DNA from: Anaerolineaceae bacterium
GTDB taxonomy: Bacteria; Chloroflexota; Anaerolineae; Anaerolineales; Anaerolineaceae
DNA length: 64,000 bases
NCBI GenBank assembly: GCA_002702705.1
Contig: PABH01000057.1
Span: forward strand, 62,001-126,000
Direction of reading: 5' to 3'
Shown: one piece after another, positions 38,729 to 43,141 of the stretch
Layout: every line of letters starts with the position of its first letter
Position numbering within the stretch: the stretch's first letter is position 1
The notes under the pieces: generated by a model
Told to the model about the DNA's origin: nothing
Database searches by the model: none
Seen by the model: the letters and a program-made list of their open reading frames with translations, nothing else
Program-made: the position numbers and the translations under genes

Positions 38729-41700
38729 ATGAATAAAACCATAAAAATCCTTATTGGGCTCTTTGCTCTTAGTTTTATCATAGCATTACCTACTTATGCC
38801 CAAACCCCTTCGGATATTCGTGAAATCAATATAAATGTCGACACGGTGATTGCTTCAGGTTTCACACAGCCTGTTCAAGTTACTCACGCCGGTGATAACA
38901 GCCAAAGATTATTTGTTGTTGAACAAACAGGATTAATAAAGATCATCCATCCGGACCGTTCGATCACGACATTTTTAAATATTGACCCACGGGTTTTAAG
39001 CGGAGGAGAACGGGGTCTTTTGGGGTTGGCATTTCACCCCCAATATGCAGCCAATGGATATTTTTATTTGGATTACACCGATAATGACGGAAATACGACA
39101 ATCTCCCGATTCCAGGTCAGTACAAATCCTAATATCGCTGATGAGAACTCAGAACAGATCTTATTTAAAATTAATCAACCTTACAGTAACCATAACGGAG
39201 GCCAACTTTTATTTGGTCCCGATGGGTATCTTTATATTGGCATGGGTGACGGCGGAAGTGGCGGGGATCCTCAGAATAATGCCCAAAACTTAAATACGCC
39301 GTTAGGTAAGTTGTTAAGGATAGATGTTAACCAAGGTGTGTTATACGCTATTCCACCTAGTAACCCTTATATTAATACACCAGGTGCAGATCCAAGAATT
39401 TGGGCTTGGGGTTTACGCAACCCATGGCGCTTTAGTTTTGACCGCCTGACCGGTGATTTATATATCGGAGACGTTGGTCAAAACAGCTGGGAAGAAATCG
39501 ATTTTCTCCCCAACGGTACTCCTGGCGGCACCAACTTTGGTTGGCGCTGTATGGAAGGCACCCATAGTTATAATACAGATCCCCCTTGCGATTCTCCGTC
39601 CTATTTAGCAACCTTAACTGCTCCTATCACCGAATACGACCATACGGTTGGCAGATCAATTACAGGTGGTTTTGTTTACCGCGGTTCCTTAAATCCCGGT
39701 TTACAAGGGTTATATTTTTTTGCAGACTATGTCAATGGAAAAATTTTTAGTTTACAAAATAACAATGGAAACTGGATACAAACACTCGAACTTTCACCCG
39801 GCTTTTTAATCAGTGCCTTTGGGGAAGATGAAAACGGAGAATTGTATGTAGTGGATTACAGTGGAAGTATCCGCCAATTAAGCGGTGAAAGTCTCTCACC
39901 ACCCAATTTAGATGAGAGTTCAATTTCAGTAGATAAACAACAAGCTGATCCCGATGAAGTGTTAACCTTTACAATAAATATAACCAACAGCGGGGTAGCC
40001 TTAAATTCTACGGCTATATTGGTAAATCCCATCCCTGAAAAATTAGATTACCTTCCGGGCACGATGATTGCCACAAGTGGGACAATTAACGATTCCCAAC
40101 CAACACAGTTAACCTGGTCAGGCTCTATAGGCCAGGAATCAACAGTGCCCATCCAATACCAGGCCCGCATCAAAACCAATGCGGGTGGATCGATTGTAAA
40201 TCTAATCACGATTTCCGGATCAGAGTTCTCGACTGTGCAGGATCATTCTGTCACCTCTGTTCCCCGGCCAGTGTTTAATTCCACACCCAACGATTTTATT
40301 CTTCCCGGAACACAGCCACTGCTTCAAGAATCGCTGATCGATTCCGTGGATTGTCAAACTTGCCATTCTTCTCCGATATACGATCTTTGGCGGGGATCCA
40401 TGATGAGTCAGGCTGGACGAGACCCACTTACCTGGGCGGCGATATATAATGCGAATGCTTACGTTCCAAACTCGGGTGAATACTGCCTTCGCTGTCATAC
40501 TCCCAATGGCTGGTATGGAGGAAGAAGTAATCCATCCGATGGCAGCACCTTGACCTCTCAAGATATTCGTAACGGTGTGAGCTGCCAATTATGCCATCGT
40601 ATGGTAGATGTGATTGCATCGGCAAGTGACGAAGCAAGTACAATTGATGAACAAATTCGGAATAATTTGGAAAACACACCTCCAACGGATCATCGCGGAA
40701 GTGCGATGATCATTATTGATCAATTAGATCGTAGAAGAGGTCCATTTAATCTCCCAGATGATTTTTCTTATCACACGGCTTATCAAACAGATTTCCTCAG
40801 CCAAAGGATGAATGCCTGGAAAGAAGCAAGTTTGTGCGGTTCCTGCCACAATGTGGATAATCCACTCCTTTCTTGGGATGTGGGCCGTAACCAATATTGG
40901 CCTAACACTATGGATGCACCTGCTTCAGATTTTTCAAAGGGTGCTCTATTTCCAATTGAACGCACCTTTGATGAATGGGCAGCCAGCGACTTCGCAGATC
41001 ATGGTGTGGTCAGCGCACCTTTCGGTTACGGGCTACCGGATCAGACGGTTCGTTCATGCCAAGATTGCCATATGCAGCGCACCAGTGGGTATGCTGCCCA
41101 AAGTGCTTTTAATCCACCTTACCGAAACTGCCAAAATGGGGAATGTATCGCCGAACACAGTTTTTTTGGGGCAAATAGTTGGGTACCACAGTTATTATTA
41201 AATCCAAATTGGCGATTATCTGCCCTTTCAGATGAGAATGCGTTAAATAATACAATTACCGGAGCAAATAACTTTGTTAAAAAGTCCGCCACACTCGATG
41301 TCACTGTGGAAGATGGTATTGGAAATAAAACTGCACGAGTAACTGTAACAAATCTTACGGGACATAAATTACCAACCGGATATCCAGAAGGAAGACGGAT
41401 TTGGATCAATATCGTCGCTAAGGATCACGCTGGCAATATTCTTTATGAATCGGGAAAATATGATTGGAATAATCACACTTTGATTGAAGACGCAGACCTA
41501 AAAGTTTACGAAGCAAAACAGGGCCTCACAGCGGAACTTTCTCAATCAATTGGCTTAACATCCGGTCCAACATTCCATTTTATTTTAAACAACACCATCT
41601 TAAAAGATAATCGCATTCCACCAAAAGGAGTAACACAGGCTGAATATGCAGCTATCGGTTTAAATCCTGTTGGCGCGGTGTACGCAGATAATCAAAACTG

Positions 41701-41926
41701 GGATATAACTGAATATGATCTGCCGGCAGACACAGAATCCGTAATTGTGCGGTTATATTATCAGGTAGCTTCAAAAGAATATATAGACTTTTTGGAAAAT
41801 TATGGCGGTTATGACGGGGTAGTACTTAAATCACTTTGGGAAGAAACACCAGCTGACCCAATCCTAATGAATATCAGATTTTCACCACAATTTGATAGCC
41901 GCCTCCCTATCATTTTTAAGAATTAA
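38729..41926 (+). CDS. Glucose/sorbosone dehydrogenase-pentaheme cytochrome c fusion
   Basis: The 1065-residue product has a Sec signal peptide (about 1-24, cleavage near TYAQ). Residues about 30-385 form a six-bladed GSDH propeller. The catalytic-type His is in SNHNGGQLLFGPDG (about 155), with GLRNPWRFSFD near 230. A DUF11-type beta domain spans about 393-510. The rest is cytochrome-like with five CxxCH sites: 542-546, 586-590, 619-623, 703-707 and 777-781. GHKLPTGYPEGRR in the C-terminal beta domain is typical of multiheme proteins. It ends LPIIFKN, similar to short tails of other Chloroflexota exoproteins. PQQ- or sugar-dependent oxidation coupled to heme transfer is inferred. Confidence 0.88.
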   Translation: MNKTIKILIGLFALSFIIALPTYAQTPSDIREININVDTVIASGFTQPVQVTHAGDNSQRLFVVEQTGLIKIIHPDRSITTFLNIDPRVLSGGERGLLGLAFHPQYAANGYFYLDYTDNDGNTTISRFQVSTNPNIADENSEQILFKINQPYSNHNGGQLLFGPDGYLYIGMGDGGSGGDPQNNAQNLNTPLGKLLRIDVNQGVLYAIPPSNPYINTPGADPRIWAWGLRNPWRFSFDRLTGDLYIGDVGQNSWEEIDFLPNGTPGGTNFGWRCMEGTHSYNTDPPCDSPSYLATLTAPITEYDHTVGRSITGGFVYRGSLNPGLQGLYFFADYVNGKIFSLQNNNGNWIQTLELSPGFLISAFGEDENGELYVVDYSGSIRQLSGESLSPPNLDESSISVDKQQADPDEVLTFTINITNSGVALNSTAILVNPIPEKLDYLPGTMIATSGTINDSQPTQLTWSGSIGQESTVPIQYQARIKTNAGGSIVNLITISGSEFSTVQDHSVTSVPRPVFNSTPNDFILPGTQPLLQESLIDSVDCQTCHSSPIYDLWRGSMMSQAGRDPLTWAAIYNANAYVPNSGEYCLRCHTPNGWYGGRSNPSDGSTLTSQDIRNGVSCQLCHRMVDVIASASDEASTIDEQIRNNLENTPPTDHRGSAMIIIDQLDRRRGPFNLPDDFSYHTAYQTDFLSQRMNAWKEASLCGSCHNVDNPLLSWDVGRNQYWPNTMDAPASDFSKGALFPIERTFDEWAASDFADHGVVSAPFGYGLPDQTVRSCQDCHMQRTSGYAAQSAFNPPYRNCQNGECIAEHSFFGANSWVPQLLLNPNWRLSALSDENALNNTITGANNFVKKSATLDVTVEDGIGNKTARVTVTNLTGHKLPTGYPEGRRIWINIVAKDHAGNILYESGKYDWNNHTLIEDADLKVYEAKQGLTAELSQSIGLTSGPTFHFILNNTILKDNRIPPKGVTQAEYAAIGLNPVGAVYADNQNWDITEYDLPADTESVIVRLYYQVASKEYIDFLENYGGYDGVVLKSLWEETPADPILMNIRFSPQFDSRLPIIFKN

Positions 41927-41980: not shown

Positions 41981-43141
41981 ATGGTCGATAAACAAACACT
42001 AAAAAATATAATTCAAACAGCATTTCCCGGATTAGCCTCAGAAGATGCGGATCAAATGATCAATGCAGGACGAACAAAAACTTTCCCGCCTAAAACCGCA
42101 TTATGCATAGAGGGTGCTTATGAATCCACATTTTATATTGTTCTAAAAGGCCAGGTAGCAGTTACCAAAAACTTTAATGACCAGGAAGAAAGGTTTCTTA
42201 AGCATCTCAATCCAGGCGATTTTTTTGGAGAAATGGCAATTATTCATGATGCCCCTCGAGCTGCGACAGTCACTACGGTGACCGAAACAACGGTTATGGA
42301 AATTTCAAAAGAAACTTTTACCAATTTCCTCGAATCGTTTAATACCGTTTCGATAGCAGTCATCCGAGAAGTATCACGCCGCTTGAGAGAGAATGATGAA
42401 ATGGCTATTGAAGATTTACGGGTTAAAGCAAAAGAGGTTGCAGACGCATATCAAAAATTAGCAGAACAAGATTTAGCCCGCCGCGAATTTTTAACAACCA
42501 TCGCCCATGAATTTCGAACACCATTAATGGCAGCCACCGGTTACTTACAAATCATCCGGACCGGAATGCTAAAAGGTGAAGGTTTACAATCTGCAATCGA
42601 AACTGTTGAACGGAATATGAAAGAAATTATTACCTTAACAAATAACATCCTTTTCCTTCAAGAATTGGATCTTATTCTTCCCGAATTTCGGGAAACCGAT
42701 TTGGGTACCGTAATAGCATCAGCGGTTGAATCGCAGCGAAATCATGCCAAACGAAATCGAGTTGGTATTTCGTTAAAAATCGCCCCTGATTTACCCATAA
42801 TTAGTGCCGATCCTCCTAGTTTGGAACGTGCCTTTGTTGCTATCCTGGAAAATGCAATCAAGTTTAGCCCAAATGGTGGCGATGTAATCGTGACGGTAAA
42901 ACAAACAGAGGATTTTATTCAAATAATTTTCCGAGATTTTGGAGTCGGTATTGAAGAAAAAGATTTACCCTATATTTTTGATCGTTTTTACCACCAGGAA
43001 AAAATCGGAAATCAATTGTTCCGTGGGATAGGTTTGGGTTTATCTATCACAAAGGAAATCATTAAACAGCATAAAGGAAATATAACGGTAACCAGTCAAC
43101 CAGATGATGGAAGTCAGTTTGTGATTAAACTGCCGATATAA
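41981..43141 (+). CDS. Histidine kinase with an N-terminal cyclic-nucleotide-binding-like domain
   Basis: The 386-residue protein is soluble. A cNMP domain (about 15-130) has the pocket motif FGEMAIIHDAPRAATV with Glu84 and Arg93. A coiled linker (140-165) leads to the HisKA domain with EFLTTIAHEFRTPL (phospho-His 176). The HATPase_c domain covers about 270-386 (N box LENAIKFS, G boxes DFGVGIEE and GIGLGLSI). No response regulator lies nearby. It begins 54 bases after the dehydrogenase-cytochrome gene and may be co-transcribed with it. Confidence 0.92.
   Translation: MVDKQTLKNIIQTAFPGLASEDADQMINAGRTKTFPPKTALCIEGAYESTFYIVLKGQVAVTKNFNDQEERFLKHLNPGDFFGEMAIIHDAPRAATVTTVTETTVMEISKETFTNFLESFNTVSIAVIREVSRRLRENDEMAIEDLRVKAKEVADAYQKLAEQDLARREFLTTIAHEFRTPLMAATGYLQIIRTGMLKGEGLQSAIETVERNMKEIITLTNNILFLQELDLILPEFRETDLGTVIASAVESQRNHAKRNRVGISLKIAPDLPIISADPPSLERAFVAILENAIKFSPNGGDVIVTVKQTEDFIQIIFRDFGVGIEEKDLPYIFDRFYHQEKIGNQLFRGIGLGLSITKEIIKQHKGNITVTSQPDDGSQFVIKLPI

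Follow-up and report, generated by a model that had tools for sequence, protein, structure and literature searches.

A single-chain fusion of an HHIP-type dehydrogenase propeller with a c552-like pentaheme cytochrome in Anaerolineaceae, a putative secreted redox relay

Pentaheme cytochromes of the PHC family, to which Geobacter ExtKL and Gsu2801 and the sPHC and lPHC proteins of cable bacteria belong, carry five CxxCH motifs, an N-terminal heme domain and an immunoglobulin (Ig)-like C-terminal domain. Passages of PMC11976967 describe their structural homology to cytochrome c552 of Thermochromatium tepidum (PDB 5ze8), to which the same passages give no clear assigned function, and the fusion of the PHC domain in cable bacteria to a further domain, truncated hemoglobin. 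ExtKL itself is presented in the available text of PMC6148476 as a predicted periplasmic pentaheme protein of a Geobacter conduit cluster. Propellers of the glucose/sorbosone dehydrogenase (GSDH) type are known from soluble glucose dehydrogenase (sGDH; 1c9u) and aldose sugar dehydrogenase (Asd; E. coli YliI), which depend on pyrroloquinoline quinone (PQQ), and from human HHIP. Proteins that combine GSDH with a single heme are known from Planctomycetota. The fungal AA12 pyranose dehydrogenase CcPDH, as described in excerpts of PMC6881789, joins a six-bladed PQQ propeller and a cytochrome in one chain, the cytochrome being a heme b AA8 domain and not a set of five c hemes. Here we describe a gene at 38729-41926 (forward strand) of a 64,000-nucleotide stretch of an Anaerolineaceae genome (GCA_002702705.1, contig PABH01000057.1, positions 62,001 to 126,000; hereafter the window), which joins an HHIP-type GSDH propeller to a pentaheme cytochrome of the c552/ExtKL type. 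Both domains, and the joining of a propeller to a cytochrome, are already known, the latter from CcPDH; for this particular pairing we found no description in the literature searched, which left most subscription journals outside.

The gene is a single unbroken ATG-to-stop frame of 1065 amino acids that holds both halves without a stop or frameshift between them, such a break having been named beforehand by the first-pass annotation of this DNA as what would speak against its proposal of a single-chain fusion. The domain set listed there (GSDH propeller, DUF11, five CxxCH motifs) is borne out by Pfam matches over cut-off: GSDH (PF07995) at residues 46-375 (38864-39853) with 154.7 bits (cut-off 25), the linker domain DUF11 (PF01345) at residues 400-501 (39926-40231) with 29.6 bits (cut-off 24.6), and Cytochrome_C7 and Cytochrome_C554 with 27.5 (cut-off 24.8) and 22.8 bits (cut-off 20.8), their best stretches lying within residues 539-623. 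The five heme motifs are CQTCH (residue 542, 40352-40366), CLRCH (586, 40484-40498), CQLCH (619, 40583-40597), CGSCH (703, 40835-40849) and CQDCH (777, 41057-41071). The motif SNHNGGQL, which the annotation had also pointed out for its base histidine, is present at residues 153-160, and its His155 (39191-39193) aligns with the base His144 of sGDH. A probable signal peptide occupies about residues 1-25 (38729-38803), judging by eye from the hydrophobic N-terminus, and residues 2-23 form a helix in the structure model. The full-length model has a predicted local distance difference test (pLDDT) score of 82.3 and a predicted template modelling (pTM) score of 0.62, and does not fix the arrangement of the domains.

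We found the propeller-cytochrome fusion in nine genomes (G000, G142, G419, G465, G320, G402, G475, G453 and L045, with L044 counted together with G419), that is, in eight genomes besides the source genome. In G142, of the same genus, a 1063-amino-acid protein of the same architecture is 62% identical to the window protein, and the locus is syntenic, flanked upstream by a glycosyltransferase gene of the same kind and downstream by the same gene for a cyclic nucleotide monophosphate (cNMP)-binding histidine kinase. The cytochrome half was matched in 24 of 147 genomes of the same family, fused only in G000 and G142, and in 34 of 396 genomes sampled from the class (E 1e-20 or better), seven of which carry the fusion (G000, G419, G465, G320, G402, G475 and G453, where the gene is cut by the contig end). 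A scan of genome_contigs for cytochrome relatives, from which the best 80 of 561 were kept, gave two fusions, both in Anaerolineales (L044, L045), and 78 loci not fused to GSDH. In a tree of 49 cytochrome halves, which sampled 20 of these 78 unfused loci, the nine fused members and five unfused ones (G260, G431, G181, G468 and G213) form one clade (SH-aLRT 99), and the fused state needs two changes. In a tree of 23 propellers, with the 14 unfused rows of the alignment A3 described below, the nine fused propellers make up one side of a branch with support 88/91, recovered in 87% of 200 bootstrap trees. The simplest history suggested by these trees is one fusion event, after which one lineage lost the propeller; alternatively, there may have been two separate fusion origins. 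An assembly fusion or a frameshift was ruled out, since the frame is unbroken, nine genomes carry the fusion, one of them syntenic at the identity given above, and a single origin is compatible with the tree of either half. As a separate observation, the fused protein at L045:4396-7632 has four intact CxxCH motifs, the third reading CQLGH, through natural loss or a sequencing error.

We hypothesise that the protein is secreted, probably to the cell surface, and works as a redox relay within one chain, its donor site being non-canonical; this reading we put forward tentatively and rate as somewhat short of an even chance. The HHIP-type six-bladed propeller would oxidise an extracellular compound, probably a sugar or other hydroxylated molecule, at a donor site that keeps the base histidine and the Arg-Asn pair of sGDH without the clamp for the PQQ carboxylates, and the electrons would then pass via the linked pentaheme wire of c552/ExtKL type to an acceptor outside the cell. 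Since the clamp is absent, the cofactor of the propeller would be bound differently or would not be PQQ. If the propeller is active, the mode of action would be comparable to that of CcPDH. The relay is supported by the retention of the histidine and the Arg-Asn pair, the recurrence of the fusion, trees that fit one origin, the predicted c552 fold, cytochrome-assembly genes in the genome and the linkage of the two genes in Planctomycetota; what we infer is the redox activity of the propeller, the direction of electron flow, the substrate, the acceptor and the surface location.

The cytochrome half (residues 533-1054, 40325-41890) is predicted to adopt the Thermochromatium c552 fold, a heme domain followed by an Ig-like domain, and to belong to the ExtKL/PHC family. 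Modelled alone (mean pLDDT 89.3, pTM 0.90), it has 5ze8 as its best fold match (Foldseek E 2.3e-16; Z 22.5, root mean square deviation 3.0, 346 aligned residues, 22% identity), and 5ze8 also matches the whole model over residues 533-1054 (Z 22.3); no other cytochrome stands among the best 50 fold matches listed. The window protein differs from c552 and the PHC proteins in its fusion to a GSDH propeller and DUF11, in its low identity to 5ze8 and in falling far under the cut-off of the ExtKL equivalog NF040886 (26.5 bits vs 250), and the OmcA/MtrC decaheme model TIGR03507 gives 25.6 bits against a cut-off of 209.3, with five hemes here and not ten. Published work connects the family with extracellular electron transfer, and such a role is plausible for the window protein. 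In the C-terminal beta domain lies the conserved stretch GHKLPTGYPEGRR, which includes His879 (41363-41365). This histidine and His810 are present in all 82 aligned rows, the window included, and His682 in 81, and we consider the three candidate distal heme ligands.

Heme motif 4 lacks the histidine that most relatives (68 of 82 rows) have about six residues upstream. Throughout the fused clade (14 rows) it is absent from its customary position, G453 having a histidine four residues earlier. This loss could leave the heme open, as would suit a pentaheme half acting as a reductase (of an oxyanion, for instance), with the propeller delivering a substrate or a partner and the electrons flowing from the cell to the cytochrome; likewise, a Geobacter deletion mutant of extI, which encodes the porin of the extHIJKL cluster, is impaired in reducing selenite and tellurite according to the available text of PMC6148476. 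Such a reductase seems improbable to us, since the same histidine is missing in several unfused lineages, heme ligation is here read from sequence only, and no known-reductase model appears among the window protein's matches in Pfam and NCBIfam. For the reason of those unfused lineages we also do not press the loss as a mark of the fusion. The wider cytochrome family shows other architectures: L061, L065 and L083 have an extra N-terminal CxxCH (six motifs), L070 has 14 CxxCH in one frame, and in G028 (L032:7380-10568) the pentaheme family is N-terminal in a 1063-residue frame, followed by about four repeated segments (counted by eye) and ending in IYLPLIMK.

The propeller is HHIP-type, nearer to HHIP than to Asd or sGDH in both sequence and fold. 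The closest solved chains by sequence are those of human HHIP (phmmer E 3.7e-44), a profile of alignment A3 scores HHIP at 224 bits vs 99 for the best Asd, and by fold HHIP (Z 37.6) is followed by Asd and sGDH (Z 32-35, best 34.8) and, under both, by AA12 (Z 26.8-28.0). A3 holds 20 propellers, 6 fused and 14 unfused, and drew on 16 of 30 propeller loci, taken from L159-L164, L166, L167 and L169-L175 and leaving out L158 (the locus of the window), L165, L168 and L176-L187. His155, Arg230 and Asn231 (the latter two at 39416-39421), equivalent to His144, Arg228 and Asn229 of sGDH, are kept in all 20, and the histidine and the Arg-Asn pair likewise in 9/9 fused propellers and in 6/6 GSDHs that neighbour planctomycete pentaheme genes; HHIP itself has His-Asp where Arg-Asn stands, and no cytochrome. 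HHIP-type propellers were also seen in open frames spanning about 2280-2380 residues or more on viral-classed IMG/VR contigs (L203, L205, L207, L208, L210, L218 and L219), several of these frames running to the end of the locus; the viral GSDH loci served only to deepen the fold alignment.

A functional link between the two parts is also suggested where they are separate genes. At 7 of the 78 unfused loci (L067, L069, L073, L080, L084, L088 and L106) we found a separate GSDH-type frame, in all seven on the strand of the cytochrome. Among the first 50 of these loci, the seventh GSDH locus lying outside that set, a GSDH stands beside the pentaheme gene at six, mostly in Planctomycetota, against 0.31 expected from 112 whole-genome GSDH matches (Poisson P ~1e-6, or P = 0.004 when only three independent events are granted), and in 5 of the 6 genomes this neighbour is the only GSDH match found. 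In L080 and L088 the order is GSDH, a protein of ~1010 amino acids, one of ~271 amino acids, the pentaheme gene and a second protein of ~1010 amino acids, which in L080 is a subtilase; Pfam gave no match for two other L080 neighbours tested.

Several observations weigh against the relay. No GSDH lies in reach at 71 of the 78 unfused loci, a profile search found none around unfused Chloroflexota pentaheme genes (mostly with ~1.5 kb of flank on each side), and none lies in the 8-15 kb around the five close unfused cytochrome relatives. Among the planctomycete loci, L073, L080 and L088 are partly alike in gene order and may be one lineage; genes nearby end in a C-terminal tail typical of secreted proteins, and these neighbourhoods may be clusters of secreted proteins only. 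In the propeller, Val335 (39731-39733) stands at the place of the PQQ-carboxylate residue Lys377, and Leu360-Ile361-Ser362 (39806-39814) at that of Arg406/Arg408, with Leu360 and Ser362 for the two arginines, where YliI has Lys, Arg and Arg. These positions were taken from a profile alignment to YliI, in which the sGDH row is unaligned in that region, because the MAFFT alignment looks wrong in its C-terminal third, where matching YVY/FVY motifs stand unaligned. None of the 20 A3 propellers has Lys at the 377 place or Arg at the 406 or 408 place, and only one of the six planctomycete neighbours, L084, has Arg at the 406 place. The nearest structures are of HHIP, a binder of signalling ligands. 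In the full-length model the propeller loops 273-291 and 296-314 have a pLDDT <50, and since the propeller is poorly modelled in places, the pocket and its distance from the hemes are not readable from it. Finally, PQQ biosynthesis genes were not found in the source genome, where the best PqqE match has 132.6 bits vs a cut-off of 381 and PqqC has no match, a weak negative, since none of the control genomes was over the cut-off for either (0/14 for PqqE).

The clamp bears directly on the PQQ route suggested by the first-pass annotation, in which the propeller, if active, would deliver electrons from sugar or lipid-linked alcohol oxidation to the hemes. With the equivalents of Lys377, Arg406 and Arg408 absent and HHIP, not glucose dehydrogenase, as the nearest structure, that route is not supported, and because every checkable carboxylate clamp is absent we do not file the propeller as a PQQ glucose dehydrogenase; another redox site or a binding site in the propeller is possible. 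A classical PQQ/Ca-dependent aldose dehydrogenase wired to the hemes and using scavenged PQQ would agree with the fold (Z 32-35 to sGDH and Asd), the base histidine and the Arg-Asn pair that the window protein shares with sGDH and YliI. Moreover, in the excerpts of PMC6881789 and PMC6881810, AA12 is described as binding PQQ in the absence of Lys377, and both fungi and E. coli as using PQQ without making it. However, the equivalents of both C-terminal arginines are absent here, whereas AA12 keeps one: CcPDH retains Arg621 together with His560, and the authors of PMC6881789, in the part available, have Arg621 hold the C-9 carboxylate of PQQ and equate it with the arginine conserved in sGDH and Asd. 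In the window protein no arginine stands at 360-362 in place of Arg621, a comparison made by way of YliI and not with AA12 directly. With these arginines lacking and the PQQ genes not found in a search without a positive control, we judge this classical enzyme decidedly improbable. The Ca loop of the window protein reads VGQ where sGDH and YliI have QGP/HGP (Gly250 kept, Pro replaced by Gln251), the carbonyl ligands Gly247/Pro248 not being readable from sequence.

A different account of the same lost clamp is that the propeller is a redox-silent, HHIP-like binding or docking module that holds the cytochrome on a glycan, a mineral or a partner, only the pentaheme half being redox-active. It would fit the closest fold, since HHIP was solved with heparin and with a glycosaminoglycan mimic (titles of 7pgm and 7pgn), the five close cytochrome relatives that do without a propeller, and the G028 cytochrome of the same family, whose C-terminal part is of another kind and rich in repeats. 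A propeller that only binds should have no use for the base histidine and the Arg-Asn pair, though, and these are invariant in 20/20 propellers while HHIP has lost Arg-Asn. We regard the docking module, the main rival, as unlikely, if still to be taken seriously, and prefer, with the caution expressed above, the redox relay.

In the source genome, three matches over cut-off to the cytochrome-assembly family PF01578 (718, 694 and 252 amino acids, the last with an internal TAG), which by their lengths we read as CcmF- and CcmC-like, suggest that c-hemes can be made, and six further C554-type match rows were seen at E up to 1. Two matches to the heme-copper oxidase subunit I family COX1 (464.7 and 264.5 bits) make the label of anaerobe, which the first-pass annotation had given to the organism, unsafe. 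Passages of PMC7399161 report large multiheme cytochromes in Anaerolineales and cite a Chloroflexi isolate capable of extracellular electron transfer, so that this process has already been proposed for the group. The next gene (41981-43141), on the same strand 54 bases downstream, encodes the cNMP-binding domain fused to a histidine kinase that is kept in G142, and it could regulate the fusion gene or be co-transcribed with it; in other genera the fusion gene stands beside different genes.

The window protein ends in LPIIFKN (41903-41923), which resembles a tail common in the source genome, although the strict pattern has no match within the window. In that genome the pattern [YF]-h-P-h-h-h-[KR]-stop, which as searched also tolerates TGG and certain other final residues, gave 44 DNA matches vs 5 for a reversed-pattern control. 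A true stop is present at 26 of the 30 tail loci L229-L258; at 21 of them it closes an open frame of >=225 residues, in every case after K or R. By its sequence this tail resembles a tag for sorting or anchoring secreted proteins, one of which we found no description in the literature searched.

One further feature sets the fused propellers apart. Residues 309 (39653-39655) and 335, the latter at the Lys377 place and a Cys in most unfused relatives examined, are both Cys in 12 of the 14 unfused members of the class and in 6/6 planctomycete neighbours, and both non-Cys in 9/9 fused members and 2 of 14 unfused ones, so that they go together in 29/29 rows, a pattern as in a disulfide. Matches to the window propeller occur in 180 of 298 sampled genomes of the class (E 1e-20 or better). 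A broader and doubtful idea is that the HHIP-type propellers of bacteria form a large group of redox enzymes acting outside the cell. Their cofactor site would differ from those of sGDH, Asd and AA12, and their partners would be pentaheme wires of c552/ExtKL type, the fused members having lost the cysteines as if heme wiring had taken the place of a thiol/disulfide step or altered the shape of the cofactor pocket.

Pfam and NCBIfam name HHIP-type bacterial propellers glucose/sorbosone or PQQ dehydrogenases, and the residues tested here do not fit those names. Should the propeller prove silent, the fusion would argue clearly against calling such genes glucose dehydrogenases. If it is active, one secreted polypeptide would oxidise a substrate and wire the electrons out of the cell, in a group where, according to the available text of PMC7399161 on Anaerolineales genomes, porin-cytochrome conduits were not found; HHIP-type propellers of bacteria would thereby also gain a function and a link to a family of pentaheme proteins whose own role is not clear.

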